A program made the translations under genes and the position numbers. Below are positions 38,403 to 50,434 of a stretch of 64,000 nucleotides of DNA, in pieces (position 1 is the first letter of the stretch; each line of letters starts with the position of its first letter). The notes under the pieces are model-generated. The model was not told where the DNA came from, did no database searches, and worked only from the letters and a program-made list of their open reading frames with translations. The stretch spans positions 2,604,001 through 2,668,000 of the forward strand of contig NC_016599.1 of assembly GCF_000236705.1 (NCBI RefSeq), in the 5' to 3' direction. This DNA is from Owenweeksia hongkongensis DSM 17368 (GTDB taxonomy: Bacteria; Bacteroidota; Bacteroidia; Flavobacteriales; Schleiferiaceae).

Positions 38403-41036
38403 CTGAAACCATATAAATTACTAATAGTCCTATTCTTTGGACTGGCTCTTGTATTGGCCGGCTGTAAAAAAACGAAAGACACTTTTACGAGCCGTACTTT
38501 TCACCGTATGGTATCCAAGTTTAATCCATTGTATAATGGTCAGCAGGCTATGGTACAGGGCGAGGCCGCACTAAAGCAGGCGCATCGCGATGATTTCAAC
38601 ACTATACTTTCGGTATTTCAGGAGGGTGATAAAGCTGCGGCTTCTAATGTAAAGCCTACAATGGATAAGGCCATTGAAAAAGCGGCCAAGGTCATTCAGG
38701 AGCACTCTATGATGATTCGCAATGACCAAAAGAACACTTATGTGGATGATAGTTATCTGCTTTTGGGAAAAGCCAGATACTACAAACGTGAGTATTTGGA
38801 GGCACTTGAAACATTTAATTATTGTGTGCAGCAATACCCAGATTCAAAAGATTATGAAGAAGCACGCTATTGGGCGGCACGCACCGAAACACGTTTGGGG
38901 AACTTTATCAGTGCTAAGGATAAGTTTGAAAAAATGTATCGAAGTGAGCGACTTCCAAAAAAATTGAAGGGAGATGTTTTTGCGGCTTTTGGCCAATTGG
39001 AGATTGATCAAAAACATTACTCTGTGGCTATACAGCTGCTTACCCAGGCGGTGGATAAAACAAAGGACCGGGATAGTGAAATTCGATGGATGTTTATTAT
39101 CGGTCAGCTGCATTCTGCACTGGGCAATGATTTTGAGGCGAGTGAAATGTTTAAGAAGGTGATCAAAAAAGGCCCTCCTTACGAACTGCTTTTTCAAGCA
39201 CAGCTAAATCGCGCACGTAATTATGACGTAGATCTACAGGATCCGGAAGTTGTGATGGACGACTTGCGAGCTATGCTGAAGGATGATAAAAATTATGATA
39301 ATCGTGATCAGATTTATTATGTGATGGCTGAGGTGCAAGCCAAGCTTGATGAAGACGGCTTGGAAGAAGACTATTTAAAAGAATCAGTTCGCAATAGCAC
39401 CATCAATAATAATCAAAAAGGGATGAGCTATTTGAAGTTGGCCGAAAACAATTTTGATGATAAAATGTACACAGTGGCTTCTGCCTATTACGATAGCTCC
39501 TTTACCAACATTGATAAAGAAAACCCACGCTTTGATGAGGTAAAAAGGAAAAAGGAAAGCTTGGGTGAGTTGGTGAAAAACCTGAACATTATTATTACCC
39601 AAGACAGCCTACAGATGCTAGCCAATATGGGCGAAAAGCAACGCTTGCGCAAAATAGAAGAGATAGTAGAAAAGGAACAAGAAGCTGCTGAAGAAAAAAG
39701 AAGGGAGGACGAAATGCGAAACTCGAATCCTTTTGCACAGGAAGGCTCTATTACAGCAAATAACCAAGGTGCAGTAAAGGGTGGTCAATGGTATTTTTAC
39801 AATCAAAGCTTGCGATCGGTGGGCGTGCGTGATTTTACAAACCAGTTTGGAAACCGAAAGCTGGAAGATAACTGGCGAAGAAGAGATAAGGAAACGATAA
39901 GTGACTTTGACGGAGGCAAAAGTAGCGATGACGATCTTGAAGAAGGAGGCGATGTGACGGCCTCTGCTGAAGAGGAAGCGAACAGTAAAGTGCAGCAGTA
40001 TTTGGCAAATGTTCCACTTACTGAAGAGGCAATGGCCAAAAGCCATGTGATGATAATAGATGCATTCATAAATGTGGGAGCTATTTATAAGGATAACTTT
40101 CAGGATTATCACCAAGCTGAAGTGGAGCTCAAAGAACTCCTAAAACGATACCCGGACTTGGAACTAAAAAGCCGTGTGTGGTATATGCTGTATCGCATAA
40201 ATGTGCTGGCCGAAGATGAAACGGATGCTCAGTATTATAAGAACTTAATTAAACAGGAGTTTCCCGATTCTGAATATGCTCGCCTAGTGGATGGCTTGGT
40301 AGCTGGAGGTGAGCAAGATGCTTCTAAAGCCAAGTTGTATTACATAAAAACCTACAAGTCTTTTAAAGAAAGCGAATACAAAAAGGCGTTAAAGATGTCT
40401 GATTCAGGAGCGGTGGCTTTTGGTAATACAGAGCAAGGCCCACAGTTTTTGATGGTAAAAGCATTGAGCCAGGGAAAGGTAGGAAAAACGGAAAGTATGA
40501 TAGCTACACTTACTGTGGTGAGCAATCAGTATGCAAGTACCGAGCAAGGAAAAGAAGCTGCGCGAATCTTAGCACAAATAGGAAGTGGTAAGGAAGAAGA
40601 GGCTAAGGTCAACGAAAAGCCGGGATCCGTGGCTACAGAACAACCTGAAGAAAAGGAAGAAGAGTCACCTTATAAGGTAACCGATAATGAGCAACACAAG
40701 TATATTTTGGTAGTGCCCAATACCAAAGGTTTAGTGAGTAATATGACCATAGCTATAGCAGATTTTAATAAGAAGTATTTTAAAAACTCTGGCCTGAAAA
40801 CAAAGGCGGTGTATTTAAATCCTTCAGAGCAAATGATATTAGTGAGTGGTCTGGCAGATAAGAAGGAAGCGCTTAGTTATGTGGAGAATATAACGCAGCA
40901 AAAAGTGGCTAGCAAAGGTTTGGGAGGGGCAGCCGTAAAACATTTTGTAATTTCGAACACTAATTTTCAAACCTTCTACAGCACAAAAGATTTTGAAGGG
41001 TACGAGTCATATTATAAGGAGAATTACATAAAGTAA
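38403..41036 (+). CDS. PorW/SprE-like type IX secretion TPR lipoprotein, CTG start
   Basis: An 877-residue lipoprotein with TPR repeats in the first 400 residues, an acidic low-complexity middle and a helical C-terminal region, matching SprE/PorW, a periplasmic-side component of the type IX secretion system needed for secretion and gliding in relatives. The only start giving a signal peptide is CTG at 38403 (KPYKLLIVLFFGLALVLAGC, lipid-bearing Cys21). An in-frame TAA lies five codons upstream and the first TTG (38454) would remove the signal peptide. An AAAGG stretch sits nine bases before the CTG. It is followed closely by the bactofilin and ATP synthase genes. Confidence 0.87.
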   Translation: MKPYKLLIVLFFGLALVLAGCKKTKDTFTSRTFHRMVSKFNPLYNGQQAMVQGEAALKQAHRDDFNTILSVFQEGDKAAASNVKPTMDKAIEKAAKVIQEHSMMIRNDQKNTYVDDSYLLLGKARYYKREYLEALETFNYCVQQYPDSKDYEEARYWAARTETRLGNFISAKDKFEKMYRSERLPKKLKGDVFAAFGQLEIDQKHYSVAIQLLTQAVDKTKDRDSEIRWMFIIGQLHSALGNDFEASEMFKKVIKKGPPYELLFQAQLNRARNYDVDLQDPEVVMDDLRAMLKDDKNYDNRDQIYYVMAEVQAKLDEDGLEEDYLKESVRNSTINNNQKGMSYLKLAENNFDDKMYTVASAYYDSSFTNIDKENPRFDEVKRKKESLGELVKNLNIIITQDSLQMLANMGEKQRLRKIEEIVEKEQEAAEEKRREDEMRNSNPFAQEGSITANNQGAVKGGQWYFYNQSLRSVGVRDFTNQFGNRKLEDNWRRRDKETISDFDGGKSSDDDLEEGGDVTASAEEEANSKVQQYLANVPLTEEAMAKSHVMIIDAFINVGAIYKDNFQDYHQAEVELKELLKRYPDLELKSRVWYMLYRINVLAEDETDAQYYKNLIKQEFPDSEYARLVDGLVAGGEQDASKAKLYYIKTYKSFKESEYKKALKMSDSGAVAFGNTEQGPQFLMVKALSQGKVGKTESMIATLTVVSNQYASTEQGKEAARILAQIGSGKEEEAKVNEKPGSVATEQPEEKEEESPYKVTDNEQHKYILVVPNTKGLVSNMTIAIADFNKKYFKNSGLKTKAVYLNPSEQMILVSGLADKKEALSYVENITQQKVASKGLGGAAVKHFVISNTNFQTFYSTKDFEGYESYYKENYIK

Positions 41037-41043
41037 ATCACAG

Positions 41044-41466
41044 ATGATTAAGAAAAATAGGGACGTAACAGATGCAAACCAAGCAAGCAATCGGATATTG
41101 GCCGGAACCAATATTGAAGGCGAGGTGCATTCAAACGGAGATATTAGAGTAGATGGATCACTAAAAGGAACCATTAGCATTAGCGGAAAATTGGTGATTG
41201 GCGAAAACGGATCTGTAGAAGGTGACATTAAGTGTGCTTACGCCACCGTTTCTGGTAAGCTGAAGGGCAAGGTTGAGGTAAGTGAATTGCTATCACTACA
41301 AGCCACGGCTATAGTAAATGGAGAGGTGCAAACCAATAAACTATCTGTAGAGCCTGGTGCTGAGTTCAGCGGATCATGTAATATGGGATCGGTAGTAAGA
41401 AAGATGAAGAATGATGAATCAGCAGGAAACCGATCAGAAAAATCAAAAGAAGAAGCCTCAGCTTAA
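41044..41466 (+). CDS. Bactofilin (polymer-forming cytoskeletal protein)
   Basis: A 140-residue protein with a central bactofilin beta-helix (about residues 15-115): repeated turns such as GTNIEGEVHSNGDIRVDGSL, GTISISGKLVIGENGSVEGD and KLSVEPGAEFSG. Bactofilins polymerise without nucleotide and scaffold cell-wall or polar complexes. The N-terminal 15 and C-terminal 25 residues are disordered and charged. The last 56 bases overlap the atpZ start, so the tail is encoded by dual-use DNA. It lies seven bases after porW. Confidence 0.92.
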   Translation: MIKKNRDVTDANQASNRILAGTNIEGEVHSNGDIRVDGSLKGTISISGKLVIGENGSVEGDIKCAYATVSGKLKGKVEVSELLSLQATAIVNGEVQTNKLSVEPGAEFSGSCNMGSVVRKMKNDESAGNRSEKSKEEASA

Positions 41467-41650
41467 TTCTTATATAAAATACTCCACTTTGGCATTCCAG
41501 ATGGGGGGTATAATTGTGGCTGGAGTATTGTTGGGCTCTTGGCTAGACAAGCGCAACGCTAATGAAACACCATGGTTTACCATAGGCATTGGATTGTTTT
41601 CAATCTTTGCAGCACTCTATCTCACCCTTCGCGATTTTCTAAAAAAGTAA
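41411..41650 (+). CDS. AtpZ/AtpI-family small membrane protein
   Basis: A 79-residue protein with two helices: IKYSTLAFQMGGIIVAGVLLGSWLD and TIGIGLFSIFAALYLTLRDFL. It matches AtpZ proteins, which precede ATP synthase operons in this phylum and are proposed to help assemble the c-ring or supply Mg2+. The ATG at 41411 (or the next codon at 41414) lies inside the bactofilin gene; the next internal Met would remove the first helix. Confidence 0.85.
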   Translation: MMNQQETDQKNQKKKPQLNSYIKYSTLAFQMGGIIVAGVLLGSWLDKRNANETPWFTIGIGLFSIFAALYLTLRDFLKK

Positions 41651-42055
41651 ATGACGGTACTTAAAGCCTTTTTACAGTTTCTCTTAAAGTTGCTGGTTTT
41701 TTCGCTGGTGGTTGCGGCATTACATTATTTGGTCGCTACTAATATTTCCATGACTTTTCCTATAAAGGAGGTTTACAAAATGCATGTATTTGTGGTGGCG
41801 CTTACCATGCTTGCTTACGCAATGCTCTTGGTGGTGGCAAGGTTGGATGACACCAAGGTGGGGTTCACCTTTGCCGGATTGGTAATTATAAAAATGATCG
41901 TAAGCTTTGCTTATCTGTATCCACTACTGGAGCCACCAGTGTATGATGTAAAGGAAGTTGTTTTCAATTTTTTTGCTATTTACCTTGCATTTTTGTTTTT
42001 CGAAGTACGCGAGGCCTATATTCTTATCCAAAAGAGCCCCTTCGCAGCTGAGTAG
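41651..42055 (+). CDS. Four-helix membrane protein of the ATP synthase operon (DUF6168-like)
   Basis: A 134-residue protein directly abutting atpZ (no gap), with four hydrophobic segments at about 6-28, 43-64, 72-92 and 101-123. I recall flavobacterial proteins of this size between atpZ and atpB under the label DUF6168. The position suggests a role in F0 assembly comparable to AtpI, which is inference. Confidence 0.65.
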   Translation: MTVLKAFLQFLLKLLVFSLVVAALHYLVATNISMTFPIKEVYKMHVFVVALTMLAYAMLLVVARLDDTKVGFTFAGLVIIKMIVSFAYLYPLLEPPVYDVKEVVFNFFAIYLAFLFFEVREAYILIQKSPFAAE

Positions 42056-42108
42056 TAAAAGGCAAAAGTTTTCCTTTTTTTTCCACTATTCGTTCAAATA
42101 TTTATCTC

Positions 42109-42116
42109 TACATTTG
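42109..42116 (+). promoter_or_regulatory. -7 promoter element before atpB
   Basis: TACATTTG fits TAnnTTTG and lies 38 bases before the atpB ATG in a 99-base gap, suggesting an internal promoter that lets the ATP synthase genes be transcribed apart from bactofilin and atpZ. Confidence 0.4.
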
Positions 42117-42154
42117 CCCCGATTTTTAAAAAGGCTAAGTTGACACTTTATACA

Positions 42155-43315
42155 ATGAGTAAATATTTAAAACTCAGTTCTTTAGCAGTTTTTATGCTGT
42201 TGTTAGGGTTCTCCAGTAACTTGCAAGCGCAAGATAAAAATGAGCACAATCTAGAGGATCGTGCCGCTGAAAAAGTGGATTTAGACCACTCACAGCTGGA
42301 TGAGCATCATGAAGAAGCTGCGCACGGTGATGAGGAGGGTGAGTTTGATCCTGCTGAAATGATTTTGCATCATATTGGTGACACTCACGGTTTTCATGTA
42401 TATGGTGAGGGCCATGATGCTGTTTCTGTTGCGTTGCCAGTTATCTTGTGGACAGATAACGGCTTGGTTACTTTCATGTCTTCAGCTTTTCATCATGATA
42501 TAGAAGGTAGAGAAGTGGTAGAGCGCAATGGAATGCGTTTCGTGAATCTTCATGAACACATCTTTATGCTTGAAGAAGGAGCTACTACTCTAGAGTTAGA
42601 TGATGAGCACCATCCGGTAAACGCTAGCGCGCCAGTTGACCTTTCTATTACCAAAAATGTATTCACACTTTTAATGTCAGCTGTTTTTCTTTGCTTGATA
42701 TTTATACCTGTAGGAGGAAAATATAAGAAAGGACATGCGGTGCCAAGTGGACTTGCTTCCTTTATGGAGCCTCTTGTAGTATTTGTACGTGATGAAATCG
42801 CAAGACCTAATATTGGTAAGAAATACGAGAAGTATATGGGTTTCCTACTTACTATTTTCTTCCTTATTTGGATAAACAACCTTATCGGGCTTATTCCTTT
42901 CTTCCCTTTTAGTGCCAACCTTTCTGGTAACATTGCTTTTACTATGACTTTGGCCGCATTTACACTTATTGTAGTAAATATTAATGGTAGTAAGCATTAC
43001 TGGAGCCATATCTTTGCACCACCCACCCACTGGGCTTTGTGGCCAATTATGATTCCTATTGAAGTTATTGGAATACTTACCAAGCCTTTCGCATTGATGA
43101 TTCGTTTGTTTGCAAACATCTCTGCAGGTCACATTATTATTTTGAGTTTGATGTCCTTGATTTTTGTTTTCAAAAATGTGGGAGTAGCAGGAATCTCAGT
43201 GCCATTTGCACTATTTATATCAGTATTAGAGCTGTTGGTAGCAGCATTACAGGCCTTTATCTTCACCATGCTTGCAGCCCTATTTATTGGCCAAGCAGTA
43301 GAGGAAGGTCATTAA
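42155..43315 (+). CDS. atpB: F-type ATP synthase subunit a
   Basis: A 386-residue membrane subunit forming the proton half-channels. The ATG at 42155 starts a signal peptide (MSKYLKLSSLAVFMLLLGF, cleavage near LQAQ). About 140 His/Asp/Glu-rich periplasmic residues come before the standard subunit a core, an extension seen in Bacteroidota. The essential arginine is in the penultimate helix as MIRLFANISAGHIIIL. It heads the atpB-E-F-H-A-G order. Confidence 0.95.
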   Translation: MSKYLKLSSLAVFMLLLGFSSNLQAQDKNEHNLEDRAAEKVDLDHSQLDEHHEEAAHGDEEGEFDPAEMILHHIGDTHGFHVYGEGHDAVSVALPVILWTDNGLVTFMSSAFHHDIEGREVVERNGMRFVNLHEHIFMLEEGATTLELDDEHHPVNASAPVDLSITKNVFTLLMSAVFLCLIFIPVGGKYKKGHAVPSGLASFMEPLVVFVRDEIARPNIGKKYEKYMGFLLTIFFLIWINNLIGLIPFFPFSANLSGNIAFTMTLAAFTLIVVNINGSKHYWSHIFAPPTHWALWPIMIPIEVIGILTKPFALMIRLFANISAGHIIILSLMSLIFVFKNVGVAGISVPFALFISVLELLVAALQAFIFTMLAALFIGQAVEEGH

Positions 43316-43327
43316 GATTTTTTTTAA

Positions 43328-43549
<222 letters not shown>

Positions 43550-43561
43550 TTGAAGAAGACC

Positions 43562-43601
43562 AAACCGAAGCTCAGTAGCGGTTGGCTGCTAGCTTCGGTT
43601 T
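43562..43601 (+). promoter_or_regulatory. Intra-operon mRNA hairpin between atpE and atpF
   Basis: An 11-bp perfect stem (43562-43572 with 43591-43601) continues, after one bulged base, into a 6-bp stem with one G-T pair (43574-43579 with 43585-43590) and a 5-base loop. There is no run of T after it (TTTAATTAAAC), so it is unlikely to terminate fully. It more likely protects the 3' end of atpE mRNA or attenuates transcription into atpF, matching the higher c-subunit copy number. Confidence 0.7.
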
Positions 43602-43654
43602 AATTAAACAAAGAAAACAAGTACTTACATAAAAGAATAAACCAGTTTATTAAT

Positions 43655-44149
43655 ATGGAATTAGTAACGCCCGCAATTGGACTGATCGTTTGGACCACTC
43701 TTACTTTCCTTATCCTACTTTTCCTTTTAGGGAAATTTGCTTGGAAACCGATCTTGAAAGCGGTAAAAGACCGTGAAACATCTATTTCAGATGCATTAAA
43801 ATCTGCGGACAAGGCTCGCGAAGAAATGGAGAAATTGAAGTCTGACAATGAGCAGATTCTCCGTGAAGCAAGAGCTGAAAGAGACGGTATTCTAAAAGAC
43901 GCCCGTGAGATTAGCGAAAAGATGGTAGCTGACGCAAAGGCAAAAGCTACTGCAGAAGGAAATAAAGTTATCGAGCAAGCTCGCGAGCAAATCGAAAACC
44001 AAAAAATGGCGGCTATTGTTGATTTGAAGAATCAGGTAGCTAAAATGTCAATCGACATTGCTGAAAAAATTATCCGCAAGGAACTTTCTGATAAAGCAAA
44101 CCAGGAAGCTCTTGTTGGGGAGCAATTGCAAGATTTCAAATTAAACTAA
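43655..44149 (+). CDS. atpF: F-type ATP synthase subunit b
   Basis: A 164-residue peripheral-stalk subunit. One N-terminal membrane helix (GLIVWTTLTFLILLFLLGKFAWKPI, about 10-34) is followed by a long charged coiled coil. Its 5' untranslated stretch after the hairpin is about 53 bases. Ten bases separate it from atpH. Confidence 0.95.
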   Translation: MELVTPAIGLIVWTTLTFLILLFLLGKFAWKPILKAVKDRETSISDALKSADKAREEMEKLKSDNEQILREARAERDGILKDAREISEKMVADAKAKATAEGNKVIEQAREQIENQKMAAIVDLKNQVAKMSIDIAEKIIRKELSDKANQEALVGEQLQDFKLN

Positions 44150-44159
44150 GGCGCACCTG

Positions 44160-44717
44160 ATGATAGTAACCGCATTAAATCGCAGATACGCAAAGTCTCT
44201 TCTTGATCTTTCTATCGAGCAAAATAAGCTTGAGGAAAGCATGAAGGATATGGACTATGTAATGAAGGTTATTGCTTCTTCAAGAGATTTGCGTGTATTG
44301 TTGAAGAGCCCAATTGTAAATGCTGATAAAAAGGAAGCGATTCTTGTCAACTTGTTTCAAGGACAGATAAGCGACCTTACCTTCAAGTTTATCAACATCA
44401 TTTTGAGCAAAGGGCGTGAGTCTCAGCTTGAAGGTATTGCACACGGCTTTTTGAACCTTTACCGCAAAAATAAAGGTATAGAAGAGGCTGTAGTAACAAG
44501 TGCAGTAGAATTGAGCGAAGCTCAACGAAATGATATCCGCGAAAAGCTGAAAGGCATAACCGGAAACTCTATAGAAATTACAGAGATGATAGATCCATCA
44601 ATTATTGGTGGTGTTAAAATCAGAGTTGGAGACAAGCAATATAACGGTAGCATCGCGTACCAGCTTGACCAGCTTAAGAGACAATTTGAGTCTAACCAGT
44701 ATATAGCAGATTTTTAA
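44160..44717 (+). CDS. atpH: F-type ATP synthase subunit delta
   Basis: A 185-residue soluble stalk protein linking F1 to subunit b (OSCP homolog). The N-terminal helical bundle (VTALNRRYAKSLLDLSIEQNKLEE) and the C-terminal signature IIGGVKIRVGDKQYNGSIAYQLDQL are clear. Confidence 0.95.
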   Translation: MIVTALNRRYAKSLLDLSIEQNKLEESMKDMDYVMKVIASSRDLRVLLKSPIVNADKKEAILVNLFQGQISDLTFKFINIILSKGRESQLEGIAHGFLNLYRKNKGIEEAVVTSAVELSEAQRNDIREKLKGITGNSIEITEMIDPSIIGGVKIRVGDKQYNGSIAYQLDQLKRQFESNQYIADF

Positions 44718-44743
44718 ATAACCATTCATAAAGGTTAATCGAG

Positions 44744-46318
44744 ATGGCAGATGTAAACCCAGCTGAAGTATCAGCAATTTTAAGACAACAACTTGCAGGA
44801 TTCAAATCTGAATCTGAGCTAGAAGAAGTAGGAACTGTATTGCAAGTAGGTGACGGTATTGCCCGCGCCTATGGTTTGGGCAAAGCTCAAGCCGGTGAAT
44901 TGGTTGAATTTGAAAGTGGACTAAGAGGAATCGTACTTAACCTTGAAGAAGATAACGTAGGTATCGTACTATTAGGCCCAGCAGATAATATCAAAGAGGG
45001 TAGCACTGTAAAACGCACCAACCGTATCGCATCACTAAAAGTAGGTGAAGGTATGCTAGGTCGTGTGGTAGACACTCTTGGTAACCCTATTGATGGTAAA
45101 GGACCAATCCAAGGCGAAACTTTTGAAATGCCACTTGAGCGTAAAGCTCCTGGTGTTATCTATCGTCAGCCGGTAACTGAGCCACTTCAAACGGGTATCA
45201 AAGCGATTGACTCTATGATTCCTGTAGGAAGAGGTCAGCGTGAGTTGATTATTGGTGACCGTCAGACTGGTAAGTCTACCGTGGCGATTGATACCATCAT
45301 CAACCAAAAAGAATTTTACGATAAGGGAGAGCCTGTATTCTGTATCTATGTGGCTATTGGCCAAAAAGGATCTACAGTGGCAGGTATTGCTAAAACCCTT
45401 GAAGATAAAGGAGCAATGGCTTACACTGTAATTGTAGCTTCAAATGCTGCTGATCCTGCACCAATGCAGTTTTACGCACCATTTGCCGGAGCTGCTATCG
45501 GTGAGTATTTCCGTGATACAGGTCGTCCTGCTTTGATCGTATTTGATGACTTGTCTAAGCAAGCTGTTGCATACCGTGAGGTATCTCTACTATTGAGACG
45601 TCCTCCAGGTCGTGAGGCTTACCCTGGTGATGTATTTTACCTACACAGCCGCTTATTGGAGCGTGCCGCTAAGGTGATCAATGATGATGAAATCGCATCT
45701 CAGATGAACGATCTTCCAGAGTCATTGAAGGGTAAAGTAAAAGGTGGTGGTTCACTTACCGCTCTTCCAATTATCGAAACTCAGGCGGGTGATGTATCAG
45801 CATATATTCCTACCAACGTAATTTCGATTACTGACGGACAGATCTTCTTGGAATCTGACTTGTTCCTATCAGGTGTGCGTCCTGCAATTAACGTAGGTAT
45901 TTCTGTATCACGTGTAGGAGGTAACGCTCAGATTAAGTCGATGAAGAAAGTATCGGGTACCCTTAAGCTTGACCAAGCTCAGTACCGCGAACTAGAAGCA
46001 TTTGCTAAGTTTGGTTCTGACCTTGATGCTGCCACTATGGGAGTAATCAACAAAGGAAAGCGTAACGTGGAAATCCTTAAGCAAGGTGTAAACAGCCCTG
46101 TGTCTGTAGAAAAGCAAATTGCTATCATTTATGCAGGTACCAAGGGATTGCTTAACAATGTTCCTGTAGAAAAAGTGAAAGCTTTTGAAACTGAGTATAT
46201 CAGCTTTTTGGAAAACAAGCACCAAGACATTTTGGATACTTTGAGAGCTGGAAAACTTACCGATGAAGTTACTGATGTATTGACGAAAGTAGCTAAGGAA
46301 TTATCAGCGAATTACTAG
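44744..46318 (+). CDS. atpA: F-type ATP synthase subunit alpha
   Basis: A 524-residue F1 subunit with the Walker A loop GDRQTGKS and the subunit signature [14 protein letters not shown], matching the regulatory nucleotide-binding alpha chain. A 66-base spacer with a 7-bp hairpin (46344-46350 with 46368-46374) and a tandem CAAACTG repeat precedes atpG; nothing else is seen there. Confidence 0.97.
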
Positions 46319-46384
46319 TTTTCAATTAGCATAAAAGCAGTGGGCAATTTGCAAACTGCAAACTGAAAAATTGCAATCTGAAAG

Positions 46385-47248
46385 ATGGCGAACTTAAAGG
46401 AATTAAGAAATAGAATTACCTCGGTATCATCTACCATGCAGATTACCTCTGCTATGAAGATGGTATCTGCTGCAAAGCTAAAGCGCGCGCAGGATGCTAT
46501 TACCGAGATGCGTCCTTATGCCCAAAAGCTTGAAGAGATATTGGTAAACGTAAGTGCCACTCTTGACGCTAGCGAAGGGGAGTATGCTCGCAAGGCTGAT
46601 AATGTGCAAAAAGTGCTTTTGGTAGCTATATCTTCTAACCGTGGATTGGCCGGAGCATTTAATGCCAACATCATGAAGGCTGTGTCTAACGAGGTGAGCG
46701 CAAACTCTAATGTAGAATACACTGTTTTTTCCATTGGTAAAAAAGTGTTTGAAGCTGCAGGTAGAAGAGGGCTTAACCAGATTGGAGAGCGCAATAGCAT
46801 TTATGATGATCTTACTTTTGAAAATGTAAGTGAGATTGCTGAAATGCTAATGGAGAAATTCCGCAAAGGAGAGTACGATAGAATTGAATTGGTGTATAAC
46901 CAGTTTAAGAATGCAGCTGTACAGCGCGTACAAGTAGAGCAGTTTTTGCCGGTACGCGAAGTAGAAGGTGGCAACAGTACTTCACAAACGGATTACATCT
47001 ATGAGCCTTCAAAAGAAGAAATTCTTGAAGACCTTATTCCTAAGTCATTAAAGACACAACTTTTCAAAGCTTTGCTTGATAGCAATGCTTCTGAGCACGG
47101 GGCACGTATGACGGCTATGCACAAAGCAACCGACAACGCTTCTGACCTTAGAAAGCAATTGAAACTGTCGTACAACCAAGCGCGTCAGGCAGCTATTACC
47201 AACGAAATCCTAGAGATTGTGGGTGGTGCTGAGGCATTGAACGGATAG
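46385..47248 (+). CDS. atpG: F-type ATP synthase subunit gamma
   Basis: A 287-residue rotor shaft. The N-terminal helix (LKELRNRITSVSSTMQITSAMKMVSAAKL) and the C-terminal signature SEHGARMTAMHKATDNASDL are complete. A terminator follows; the beta and epsilon genes (atpD, atpC) are not downstream and must lie elsewhere, an arrangement I recall from other Bacteroidota. Confidence 0.96.
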   Translation: MANLKELRNRITSVSSTMQITSAMKMVSAAKLKRAQDAITEMRPYAQKLEEILVNVSATLDASEGEYARKADNVQKVLLVAISSNRGLAGAFNANIMKAVSNEVSANSNVEYTVFSIGKKVFEAAGRRGLNQIGERNSIYDDLTFENVSEIAEMLMEKFRKGEYDRIELVYNQFKNAAVQRVQVEQFLPVREVEGGNSTSQTDYIYEPSKEEILEDLIPKSLKTQLFKALLDSNASEHGARMTAMHKATDNASDLRKQLKLSYNQARQAAITNEILEIVGGAEALNG

Positions 47249-47297
47249 AATATAGTAGTGGGTACTGGGTAATTGGTATCTGGTATTAAGAATTAAG

Positions 47298-47332
47298 AAA
47301 CCCTGATTGGTGAAAGCTGGTCAGGGTTTTTT
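47298..47332 (+). terminator. Terminator of the ATP synthase operon (GNRA-loop type)
   Basis: A 9-bp stem (47298-47306 with 47321-47329) continues through G-T pairs to a GAAA tetraloop and ends in a T run. A near-identical element lies at 59447-59478. Confidence 0.9.
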
Positions 47333-47383
47333 GTTTGGAAGAATCTCAATTTTAAATCATCTTTACAAAAATCATGAAAACAA

Positions 47384-47923
47384 ATGAAAGGCATTGTATT
47401 TACTGAGTTTCTGCAAATGGTTGAGGACGCTCACGACTATGAGTTGGTGGATCAAATCATAAACGATGTGGACCCGGAATCAGAGGGTGTGTATACCGCG
47501 GTGGGTACCTATAGCCATACTGAGATAGTCGCGTTAGTAGTGGCTTATGCTCAGCGATCTGAGCAAGAGGTTGGTGAAGTACTTAGAAAGTTTGGGCATC
47601 ATCTTCTTATGGTTTTTCACAAGTCCTATCCAGAATTTTTTGAACCCAACCCAACGGCTTTCGATCTCTTTAGCTCAATAGATAATTATATCCATATTGA
47701 GGTTGCTAAGCTTTACCCTGATGCGGAGTTGCCTAGGTTTGAAATCAATAAAAAGACTTCTGGAGAAATGGTGATGACGTATACTTCTGAAAGAAAAATG
47801 TCGGATTTAGCATTGGGACTTATTGAAAAAACCCTCGAGCATTATAAAGAGGATGCTAATATCCAACGCGATTTTTTGAATGAAGACGGTAGCTTAGTGA
47901 GATTTACAATCACTGCACAATAA
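47384..47923 (+). CDS. H-NOX heme nitric oxide sensor
   Basis: A 179-residue cytosolic gas sensor. The proximal heme ligand is His104 (DNYIHIEVAKLYP) and the heme-propionate motif YxSxR is Tyr133-Ser135-Arg137. The N terminus MKGIVFTEFLQMVED is characteristic. The position equivalent, by spacing, to the distal tyrosine of oxygen-binding H-NOX proteins (five residues past the Arg) is Leu142, so selective NO binding without stable O2 binding is inferred. It is followed after six bases by a hybrid histidine kinase, its expected partner. Confidence 0.93.
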   Translation: MKGIVFTEFLQMVEDAHDYELVDQIINDVDPESEGVYTAVGTYSHTEIVALVVAYAQRSEQEVGEVLRKFGHHLLMVFHKSYPEFFEPNPTAFDLFSSIDNYIHIEVAKLYPDAELPRFEINKKTSGEMVMTYTSERKMSDLALGLIEKTLEHYKEDANIQRDFLNEDGSLVRFTITAQ

Positions 47924-47929
47924 TCACCT

Positions 47930-50434
47930 ATGTCTGATCTACTTGAAAGGCGGCTACAGCGAGAGATAAAAGCTAGAAAACAGGCTGAGACAATTTTGGA
48001 GCAAAAAGCTCTTGAGCTTTACCAGAGCAATCTTAAGTTGCAAAAGCTTAATGAACATTTGGAGGCTACCGTTGCTGAGCGCACTAAAGAATTACAGGAA
48101 AGTGAAGCTCGTTTTAAAACACTGGTAGAGTCTGCAGGTGATATTATTTACAATGCTTCGCCCTCAGGTAAGTTTACCTATGCCAACCCGGTTACCGAAC
48201 GCTTGCTTGGCTACACCACCGATGAAATTTTACAAATGCATTATTTGGATCTTGTTCGGGAAGACATGCGAGAGGAAGTGCAGCGCTATTATGGAGAAGC
48301 TGTAAAGAGCATGCGAAAGGCCACATATTATGAGTTTCCGGTAGTAACCAAGGATGGTGAGGTACGCTGGCTTGGCCAGACTGCCCAAATTGACTTTAAA
48401 GGTAAAGACCCGGTTATGATTACGGCTGTAGCCCGGGATATAAGCGCCTTAAAACAAGTGCAAGAAGCTTTGGAAGCAAGTGAGAACAAATACCGGGGGA
48501 TCATTCAAAACATGGAGCTGGGATTGGTAGAGGTAGATCAGCAAGGCAAAGTCATATTTGCTAATAGCTGGTTTTGCGAAATGACGGGTTACTCCGTAGA
48601 AGAACTAAAACAGTCCGACCTTGAAAAACTTTTGCTCACAGCGGAAGGTGTGGAAAAGATGCGAAATAGAAATGAAAAGCGTAAAGATGGTGAAGCCGAA
48701 GTGTATGAAATACAACTAAGGCGAAAGGACGAAAGACTAATATGGGTAACCATTAGCGGAGCACCATTTTATAACCCATCGGGAAAAATGATCGGATCAG
48801 TTGGGATACATCTTGATATAACAAATCAAAAAAAGCTTCAGAATGACCTTCTAAGAGCAAAAGAGGTGGCCGAGAAAGCAAGGCAAGCCGAGAAAGAGTT
48901 TTTAGCGCATATGAGCCATGAAATACGCACACCGCTCAATGCGGTGGTGGGTATGGCTAATCTTTTAGGTACAACTCAGCTTAATGCCGACCAAAGGGAG
49001 TATGTAAACGATATTCAGTATGCCGGTGATATTCTGCATGGATTGATTAGTGAGGTGCTAGATATTTCTAAAATCGAATCTGGTGAAGTGGAAATGGTGC
49101 CCAGTGAACTCAATGTAAATGACGTATTATCTATGGTCTGTAAAACGATGGAACACAGGGCCAAAGAGAGGTTTAATACTATCAATTATAAGGTAGATAA
49201 AAGTGTGCCTGTAAATATTTTGGCAGATCGAAATTTTGTCAATCAGATTTTGCTGAATCTGATTGGTAATGCCGTTAAGTTTACTGAGAATGGCTCAATA
49301 AACGTAGATGTAAGCTATAGGCCAAATAAAGAAGACAAGGGAAGCTTAATAGTAAGTGTAGCAGATACGGGGATAGGTATCGAACAGGCTAAACTTCAGA
49401 AGATTTTTGAGCCCTATAAACAAGAGAAAGACAACTTTACTCAATCCAAACATGGCGGTACGGGCCTTGGTTTAAGTATTGTAAAGCAATTAGTAAAGAT
49501 TCATGGCGGAAGCATTGATGTATTTAGCAAAAAAGGTAAAGGATCAAGTTTTACTTTTAGTCTTAGCATAGGGATGGCCAAAGGTGAATTTCGAGATTGG
49601 AACGATCAGGAGAAAAGTGAAGAAAACTATGCCGAATTAGAGGGCAAACAAATATTGGTAGCAGAGGATAGCTATTTGAATCAAAAGTATATTAAGGGCT
49701 TGTTAAAGCAATGGGGAGTAGAGTGTCAGTTTGCGTCTGACGGGCAGCAAGCCATAGCAGAAGCTAAAAAAACAAAATACGATATCATCTTAATGGATAT
49801 GCAAATGCCTTTAATAAATGGATATGAAGCAACCCAAGAGATTAGAAATAATCAGAAAAACCCCAATTGCAGGACTCCAATTTTAGCGCTCACAGCCTCA
49901 GCCTTATTGGACGAAAAAGAGAAAGCTCTGGGGGTAGGGATGGATGGTCATTTAACTAAACCATTTACACCTGATCAATTATTAAATTATTTGATCTTAC
50001 ACTTAGGTAAATCGAAACGTGGCCTTTCTATGGAAGCCCAAGAGGTTATTTTTTCCACTTTATCATTACCGGATGGAATTGACGCCAATGCTCTGAGTGA
50101 CTTCTATGGAAAGGATATAGAGTATGCGCTAAACATGATTGGGATCTTTTTAAGGTTGCTGGATAAGCAGTACAAAGTAGCTGTGGAATTATTAAAAGAA
50201 AATGACCTTCATGGCCTGAAAAGCTGGTTTCACAAACAATCGCCTGGTTTAAAAATGCTTGGAATAGTGGACCTTTCTAATAAGTATAGCCAGATAGAGC
50301 TAAAAATTAAAGCAGGAAGTATTACTAAAGAGGAACAAAAAGAAATACCGAAATTGGTGCACGAATTTGCACAGCAAGAGGAGAAGCTAAAACAACTGAA
50401 ACAAATACTCTTAAACTATACTGAGAATGATTAA
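47930..50434 (+). CDS. Hybrid histidine kinase (PAS-PAS-HisKA-HATPase-REC-Hpt), H-NOX partner
   Basis: An 834-residue cytosolic kinase without membrane helices. A coiled coil (1-58) leads to two PAS domains (about 59-180 and 182-300). HisKA follows with His330 (MSHEIRTPLNAVVGM), an ATPase domain (NLIGNAVKFTENG, DTGIGIEQ, GGTGLGLSIVKQL), a receiver with Asp623 (IILMDMQMP), and a C-terminal Hpt-like helical domain with His768 (FHKQSPGLKMLG). This gives a complete internal phosphorelay. Gene pairing predicts that NO-bound H-NOX controls its autophosphorylation. The end overlaps the response regulator start by eight bases. Confidence 0.92.
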   Translation: MSDLLERRLQREIKARKQAETILEQKALELYQSNLKLQKLNEHLEATVAERTKELQESEARFKTLVESAGDIIYNASPSGKFTYANPVTERLLGYTTDEILQMHYLDLVREDMREEVQRYYGEAVKSMRKATYYEFPVVTKDGEVRWLGQTAQIDFKGKDPVMITAVARDISALKQVQEALEASENKYRGIIQNMELGLVEVDQQGKVIFANSWFCEMTGYSVEELKQSDLEKLLLTAEGVEKMRNRNEKRKDGEAEVYEIQLRRKDERLIWVTISGAPFYNPSGKMIGSVGIHLDITNQKKLQNDLLRAKEVAEKARQAEKEFLAHMSHEIRTPLNAVVGMANLLGTTQLNADQREYVNDIQYAGDILHGLISEVLDISKIESGEVEMVPSELNVNDVLSMVCKTMEHRAKERFNTINYKVDKSVPVNILADRNFVNQILLNLIGNAVKFTENGSINVDVSYRPNKEDKGSLIVSVADTGIGIEQAKLQKIFEPYKQEKDNFTQSKHGGTGLGLSIVKQLVKIHGGSIDVFSKKGKGSSFTFSLSIGMAKGEFRDWNDQEKSEENYAELEGKQILVAEDSYLNQKYIKGLLKQWGVECQFASDGQQAIAEAKKTKYDIILMDMQMPLINGYEATQEIRNNQKNPNCRTPILALTASALLDEKEKALGVGMDGHLTKPFTPDQLLNYLILHLGKSKRGLSMEAQEVIFSTLSLPDGIDANALSDFYGKDIEYALNMIGIFLRLLDKQYKVAVELLKENDLHGLKSWFHKQSPGLKMLGIVDLSNKYSQIELKIKAGSITKEEQKEIPKLVHEFAQQEEKLKQLKQILLNYTEND

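Follow-up and report, generated by a model that had tools for sequence, protein, structure and literature searches.

It has long been asked how bacteria obtain ten or so c subunits of ATP synthase when the same operon also carries genes for single-copy subunits. In Clostridium cellulolyticum, according to passages of PMC4423207, both ends of the c-subunit gene are processing sites, and its transcript is 3–5 times as abundant as those of its neighbours. The intercistronic hairpin of the puf operon of Rhodobacter is named in passages of PMC8219983 and PMC4423207. In chloroplasts, PPR10 and BFA2 cap the atpH/atpF mRNA, with BFA2 sitting after atpF (PMC6474325, in the passages on these proteins). 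Stabilising hairpins between the genes of an operon are an already known kind of element.

The atpE-atpF hairpin described here resembles the F-ATPase operon of C. cellulolyticum in that uneven demand for the c subunit is met within one operon (passages of PMC4423207 and PMC8219983). A second likeness is to selective RNA processing and stabilisation as a whole, which as a rule has a stem-loop behind the gene that it favours, according to the same passages. C. cellulolyticum, however, belongs to a far phylum, and the passages in PMC4423207 and PMC8219983 describe no fixed loop sequence. Its case rests on transcript measurements, that of the hairpin here on sequence comparison. PPR10 and BFA2 provide a sequence-specific barrier in an atp operon, by which exonucleases are kept from the c-subunit mRNA, but in the passages on them the barrier is a protein on unpaired RNA, and here it would be a hairpin after the c gene. 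Intrinsic terminators share the stable hairpin beyond the stop codon and, in some cases, a T run behind it; in the present case, the T run is not kept, the loop is kept and the gene order continues. The puf hairpin of Rhodobacter also lies between genes and protects the upstream, more needed segment, but it concerns other genes in another phylum and is not known to covary across a class beneath a conserved tip.

We analysed a stretch of 64,000 nt (the window), positions 2604001–2668000 of the single 4,000,057-base contig of the marine bacterium Owenweeksia hongkongensis. The reading frames around the hairpin, named by protein family, are atpB, atpE, atpF, atpH, atpA and atpG. The atpE stop codon ends at 43549 and atpF starts at 43655, leaving a spacer of 105 nt. 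The hairpin begins 12 nt past the stop codon and ends 53 nt ahead of the atpF start. The features are as follows.

43352–43549, + strand: atpE, ATP synthase subunit c (65 aa), open frame
43562–43579, + strand: 5′ arm of the hairpin, with 11 nt (43562–43572), a bulged C (43573) and 6 nt (43574–43579)
43577–43587, + strand: conserved tip AGC-GGUUG-GCU (consensus ARC-GRUUG-GYU), with the pentaloop at 43580–43584
43585–43601, + strand: 3′ arm of the hairpin
43602–43654, + strand: A/U-rich stretch from the hairpin to atpF, mostly unpaired in a short fold
43655–44149, + strand: atpF, ATP synthase subunit b (164 aa), open frame

Ahead of its membrane part, the atpB frame (42140–43315) encodes an N-terminal segment with many His, Glu and Asp residues.

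The preliminary description had claimed a hairpin of 17 bp with one bulge and no T run at 43562–43601, and both the sequence and the predicted fold agreed with it exactly. The 116 nt around the hairpin fold at −28.1 kcal/mol, against a mean of −16.2 (sd 3.0) for 200 shuffles (z −3.92), none of which was as stable. The hairpin stayed intact in a 461-nt fold including atpE and the start of atpF. The folds were also viewed with a leader attenuator or riboswitch in mind, the mark of which is a second, alternative fold with an antiterminator or ligand pocket; one stable fold was seen, in the 461-nt context as well. The sequence 3′ of the stem is AATTAAACAA, and the sole T run is a TTT within the stem base; a check for a T run directly behind the stem gave this TTT, then AATTAAAC. 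A simple terminator scan listed just the inner 6 bp of the hairpin, and the region had 11 matches against 8.7 expected from shuffles. In this respect the operon resembles SRPS-type systems, where a stable hairpin within the operon follows the gene that is favoured.

We examined the corresponding spacer in relatives, calling a hairpin strong when the best one in the spacer reached −10 kcal/mol or lower. This one rule was used for 215 spacers including 80 named loci, and 192 of them passed. The samples comprised 70 of the 78 family genomes with atpE (relatives of atpE are present in 78 of 88; second copies in some were left out), all 21 other genomes that the phylum sample has from the order, 24 of the 28 remaining class genomes (G119, G244 and G272 were left out, and L111 was dropped as atpE was not found there) and 20 of 148 from other classes, picked for spread of families. 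Strong atpE-atpF hairpins were present in 70/70 family, 21/21 other order, 23/24 other class and 10/20 other-class spacers, counts that come from genomes related to one another. The named set overlaps the genome samples in at least two loci, and the two are not summed. Compared with shuffles, 143 of 189 spacers (class and named set) had z below −3, with a median of −4.0. In relatives, the median distance from the atpE stop codon was 9 nt to the stem and 27 nt to the loop, and the hairpin lay a median of 53 nt ahead of the atpF start.

The neighbouring junctions were compared. Among 67 sampled loci with all three junctions measured, a hairpin was found at atpE-atpF in 67 and at atpB-atpE and atpF-atpH in none; the corresponding numbers for 72 named loci were 64, 10 and 12. 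The scarcity at the latter two is partly a matter of room, because their spacers are short (medians of 33 and 7 nt in the sampled set, 43 and 8.5 nt in the named set). Hairpins of −10 kcal/mol or lower with various other loops were seen at atpF-atpH in Pedobacter, Mucilaginibacter and family f4 (L094–L097, L165, L169, L173, L176, L177 and L186). Nine of 15 named Bacteroidales (Prevotella and allies, Muribaculaceae and Dysgonomonadaceae) had no strong atpE-atpF hairpin; in these nine (L202, L209, L211–L213, L216, L218, L224 and L229), the atpE-atpF spacer is short, 4 to 51 nt.

Covariation of the stem in related genomes had been proposed as a check, and the outcome was strongly positive: the stems differ and covary. 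In alignments A3 and A5, each of the ten inner pairs shows changes in both of its bases. Paired cells amounted to 97.0% in A3 (59 distinct sequences) and 96.3% in A5 (41 distinct sequences); shuffles reached 60.8% and 62.7%, and alignments slid out of register no more than 51%. As both were fitted to a model, these values lean towards structure. A further covarying alignment, A1, was hand-picked from near-perfect stems. Independent evidence comes from the unfitted folds of the family, order/class and 215-spacer sets. The paired columns of the model-fitted alignments, with the same leaning, held 54 G-U pairs against 11 A-C mismatches, which is what selection on the sense RNA would be expected to give. 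Comparison of the relatives shows a stem kept by compensatory change, with the sense strand as the pairing strand, and selection on RNA structure is well supported. We read the atpE-atpF hairpin as a cis-acting RNA element carried by the transcript of the large atp operon.

The main feature of the hairpin, which the preliminary description does not mention, is a sequence-conserved pentaloop tip atop a stem of changing sequence. The commonest tip form was ARC-GRUUG-GYU, a pentaloop with G at position 5 and mostly U at position 3, closed by C-G or G-C. We counted as one loop class all loops of 5 nt with G5 and C/G closure, leaving U3 and the purine at position 1 outside the definition; with the class so defined after the family data had been seen, and in genomes related to one another, it was found in 49/70 family, 21/21 order and 20/24 class loci (90/115 within the class overall) and in 0/20 loci of other classes. 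U occupied position 3 in 49 family, 21 order, 15 class and no other-class loci, and CGGUUGG occurred in all 21 spacers from the rest of the order. In the 136 distinct loop-class hairpins, a purine always occupied position 1, and position 3 held either U (129) or A (7). Just before the closing pair there was a purine in 134 hairpins, and the base opposite was a pyrimidine in 134; one base further out on the 5′ side, A occurred in 103.

Within the family, the loop class was present in 49/49 loci outside genera g5 and g16 and in 0/21 inside. These two genera, with genomes of about 1.4–1.8 Mb, kept a strong atpE-atpF hairpin in 21/21 loci (L008–L010, L016, L020, L023, L025, L030–L033, L035–L037, L039–L041, L043–L045 and L052) with the conserved loop in none. 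Hairpin kept and loop gone, they offer a natural contrast for finding a partner that binds the loop. Among the named loci, whose orders were assigned by hand, the loop class was found in 28/30 Flavobacteriales (29 with L157, which was tallied as lacking the loop though its hairpin is present), 11/11 Sphingobacteriales, 7/15 Cytophagales, 4/15 Bacteroidales, 3/4 unplaced loci and 0/5 from other phyla or classes. Since the loop is missing from all 21 g5/g16 loci, 8/15 Cytophagales and 11/15 Bacteroidales, it is not indispensable.

As a control, we collected the strong hairpins at other gene ends of the window and of fifteen stretches of 20 kb. This set of 105 does not contain the atp hairpin, because atpE falls under the gene-length limit. 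They included 47 tetraloops and 11 pentaloops, and none had the loop class. It is possible that the loop is favoured for folding alone, but other hairpins of these genomes should then share it, and none of the 105 does. A conserved tip on a rewritten stem suggests a putative dedicated control element.

We searched genomes with covariance models. The first model found a second place in the own genome level with the atp site (18.6 vs 18.5 bits); this place, L072, lies on the strand opposite a terminator that follows a tRNA-Phe gene and was rejected as a second copy. A second model, R2, ranked the atp site as the best match in the own genome and in 20/21 same-order genomes, with the next match at E 0.02 or worse; G154 gave no R2 match under a stricter filter, although its hairpin is present. 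In the own genome, R2 gave the atp site and one weak match (E 0.33), with no many-copy pattern, and a dispersed repeat of the REP or MITE kind was rejected. R2 was trained mainly on the order, and in 28 class genomes (the atpE position in G119 is not listed) it found the atp site in 6 and other matches elsewhere. We read 13 non-atp matches of R2 in other genomes: 12 overlap a long reading frame on either strand, and no gene recurs. The remaining one, at about 976–999 of L134 (a class genome; reverse strand of the locus) and away from atp, is a terminator-like hairpin with the loop AACGGTTGTT, which has four bases and is related to the atp tip.

We propose, with roughly even confidence, that the hairpin is an intercistronic 3′ barrier that stabilises the c-subunit mRNA, sets atpB-atpE apart from the rest of the operon and has a tip that is probably read by a protein. 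The transcript would be cut, or would decay, in the A/U-rich stretch at 43602–43654 before atpF, which is the proposed site. The hairpin would then stop 3′-to-5′ exonucleases such as PNPase, and the atpB-atpE part would outlive the distal part, giving more c subunit than b, delta, alpha and gamma. The place, the restriction to one junction and the strength of the stem fit such a barrier. All five genomes looked at, the own one and those of four relatives, encode PNPase and an RNase E/G protein and thus have enzymes for decay by cutting and trimming. In this way, the hairpin may contribute to a c-subunit output above that of the other genes in the operon.

A bare barrier needs no fixed loop, and for this reason the constant tip would be read by a protein; such recognition is the simplest candidate cause of its conservation. 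A loop that stays fixed while its stem changes freely points to a recognition partner. More tentatively, and with less than even confidence, we suggest that ARC-GRUUG-GYU after atpE is bound by an RNA-binding protein that occurs across much of the class and would cap the c-subunit mRNA, the tip being its main or only genomic site. Such a cap protein would be the bacterial counterpart of the chloroplast PPR caps. Two other uses of the loop were considered: a CsrA-type site was rejected, as the commonest loop, GGUUG, has no GGA, and antisense pairing via the loop is unlikely, as loop positions 2 and 4 vary.

The main rival to stabilisation is a partial intrinsic terminator, at which a share of RNA polymerases would stop after the hairpin and leave less operon transcribed beyond atpE. 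A T run of 5 or more follows the last G-C pair in 45 of the 136 distinct loop-class hairpins, and the median tail score is no lower than at convergent gene ends (2.87 vs 1.73, p 0.22); however, in 59 of the 136, the one in the window included, the T run is no longer than 3. A terminator also needs no fixed loop, and the loop was absent from the 105 other gene-end hairpins. In addition, the enzyme cannot do without the products of the distal genes, which leaves room for partial termination at most. Since conservation extends to stem and tip but not to the T run, we place stability first, at about an even chance, and regard termination as rather unlikely. The preliminary description had offered differential mRNA stability or partial attenuation. 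The place and uniqueness of the hairpin fit differential expression of the c subunit, while the attenuation part is weakened as a conserved function by T runs ranging from 0 to 7 among the 136 relatives; tail scores, however, are no lower than at other gene ends.

Improbable, in our estimate, is a translation element acting on ribosomes that end atpE or start atpF: the steady distance from the stop codon agrees with it, but the median of 53 nt ahead of the atpF start places the hairpin outside the usual initiation region, and conservation of stem and tip stops short of the start codon. Slightly more doubtful still is a processing site, in which the hairpin itself would be cut by RNase III or a loop-reading endonuclease to split the transcript. 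Its position between genes of unequal need and the long stems in many species speak for this, but stem length varies from 10 to 23 bp; short stems are poor RNase III substrates in E. coli, and bacterial RNase III is not known to require a loop sequence. An ordinary DNA palindrome, repeat or chance fold with no RNA function, which the equal score of L072 under the first model might have favoured, is very improbable given the identity of that place as a reversed tRNA-Phe terminator, the covariation, the excess of G-U over A-C and the clear ranking of the atp site by R2.

We looked for earlier descriptions of the hairpin motif. Term searches found no mention of ATP synthase in the main text of a transcription paper on F. 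psychrophilum (PMC9723704) or of a translation paper on F. johnsoniae (PMC6847099), and searches with atp terms found no atpE motif in the text covered of two candidate-RNA surveys (PMC2864571, PMC8040213). At gathering score, Rfam gave no match in 41000–48000 of the window or in 14 relatives; the best weak match reached 17.8 bits against a cut-off of 94. What appears to be new here is a hairpin specific to atp whose pentaloop is conserved in sequence across much of a bacterial class; none was found in Rfam 15 or among the open-access literature matches listed. As a candidate RNA family it comes with its taxonomic range, control sets and a covariance model, and in Bacteroidota it offers a precise and easily mutated handle on c-subunit excess.

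Beyond the class, several loci from other classes of the phylum (L116, L120, L123, L124, L125 and L128) had atpE-atpF hairpins of −25 to −48 kcal/mol with unrelated loops. Such very stable, unrelated hairpins hint that the same need is met by another structure. In E. coli K-12, taken as an outgroup, the atpE-atpF spacer folds moderately (z −1.97), with 7 of 200 shuffles as stable.
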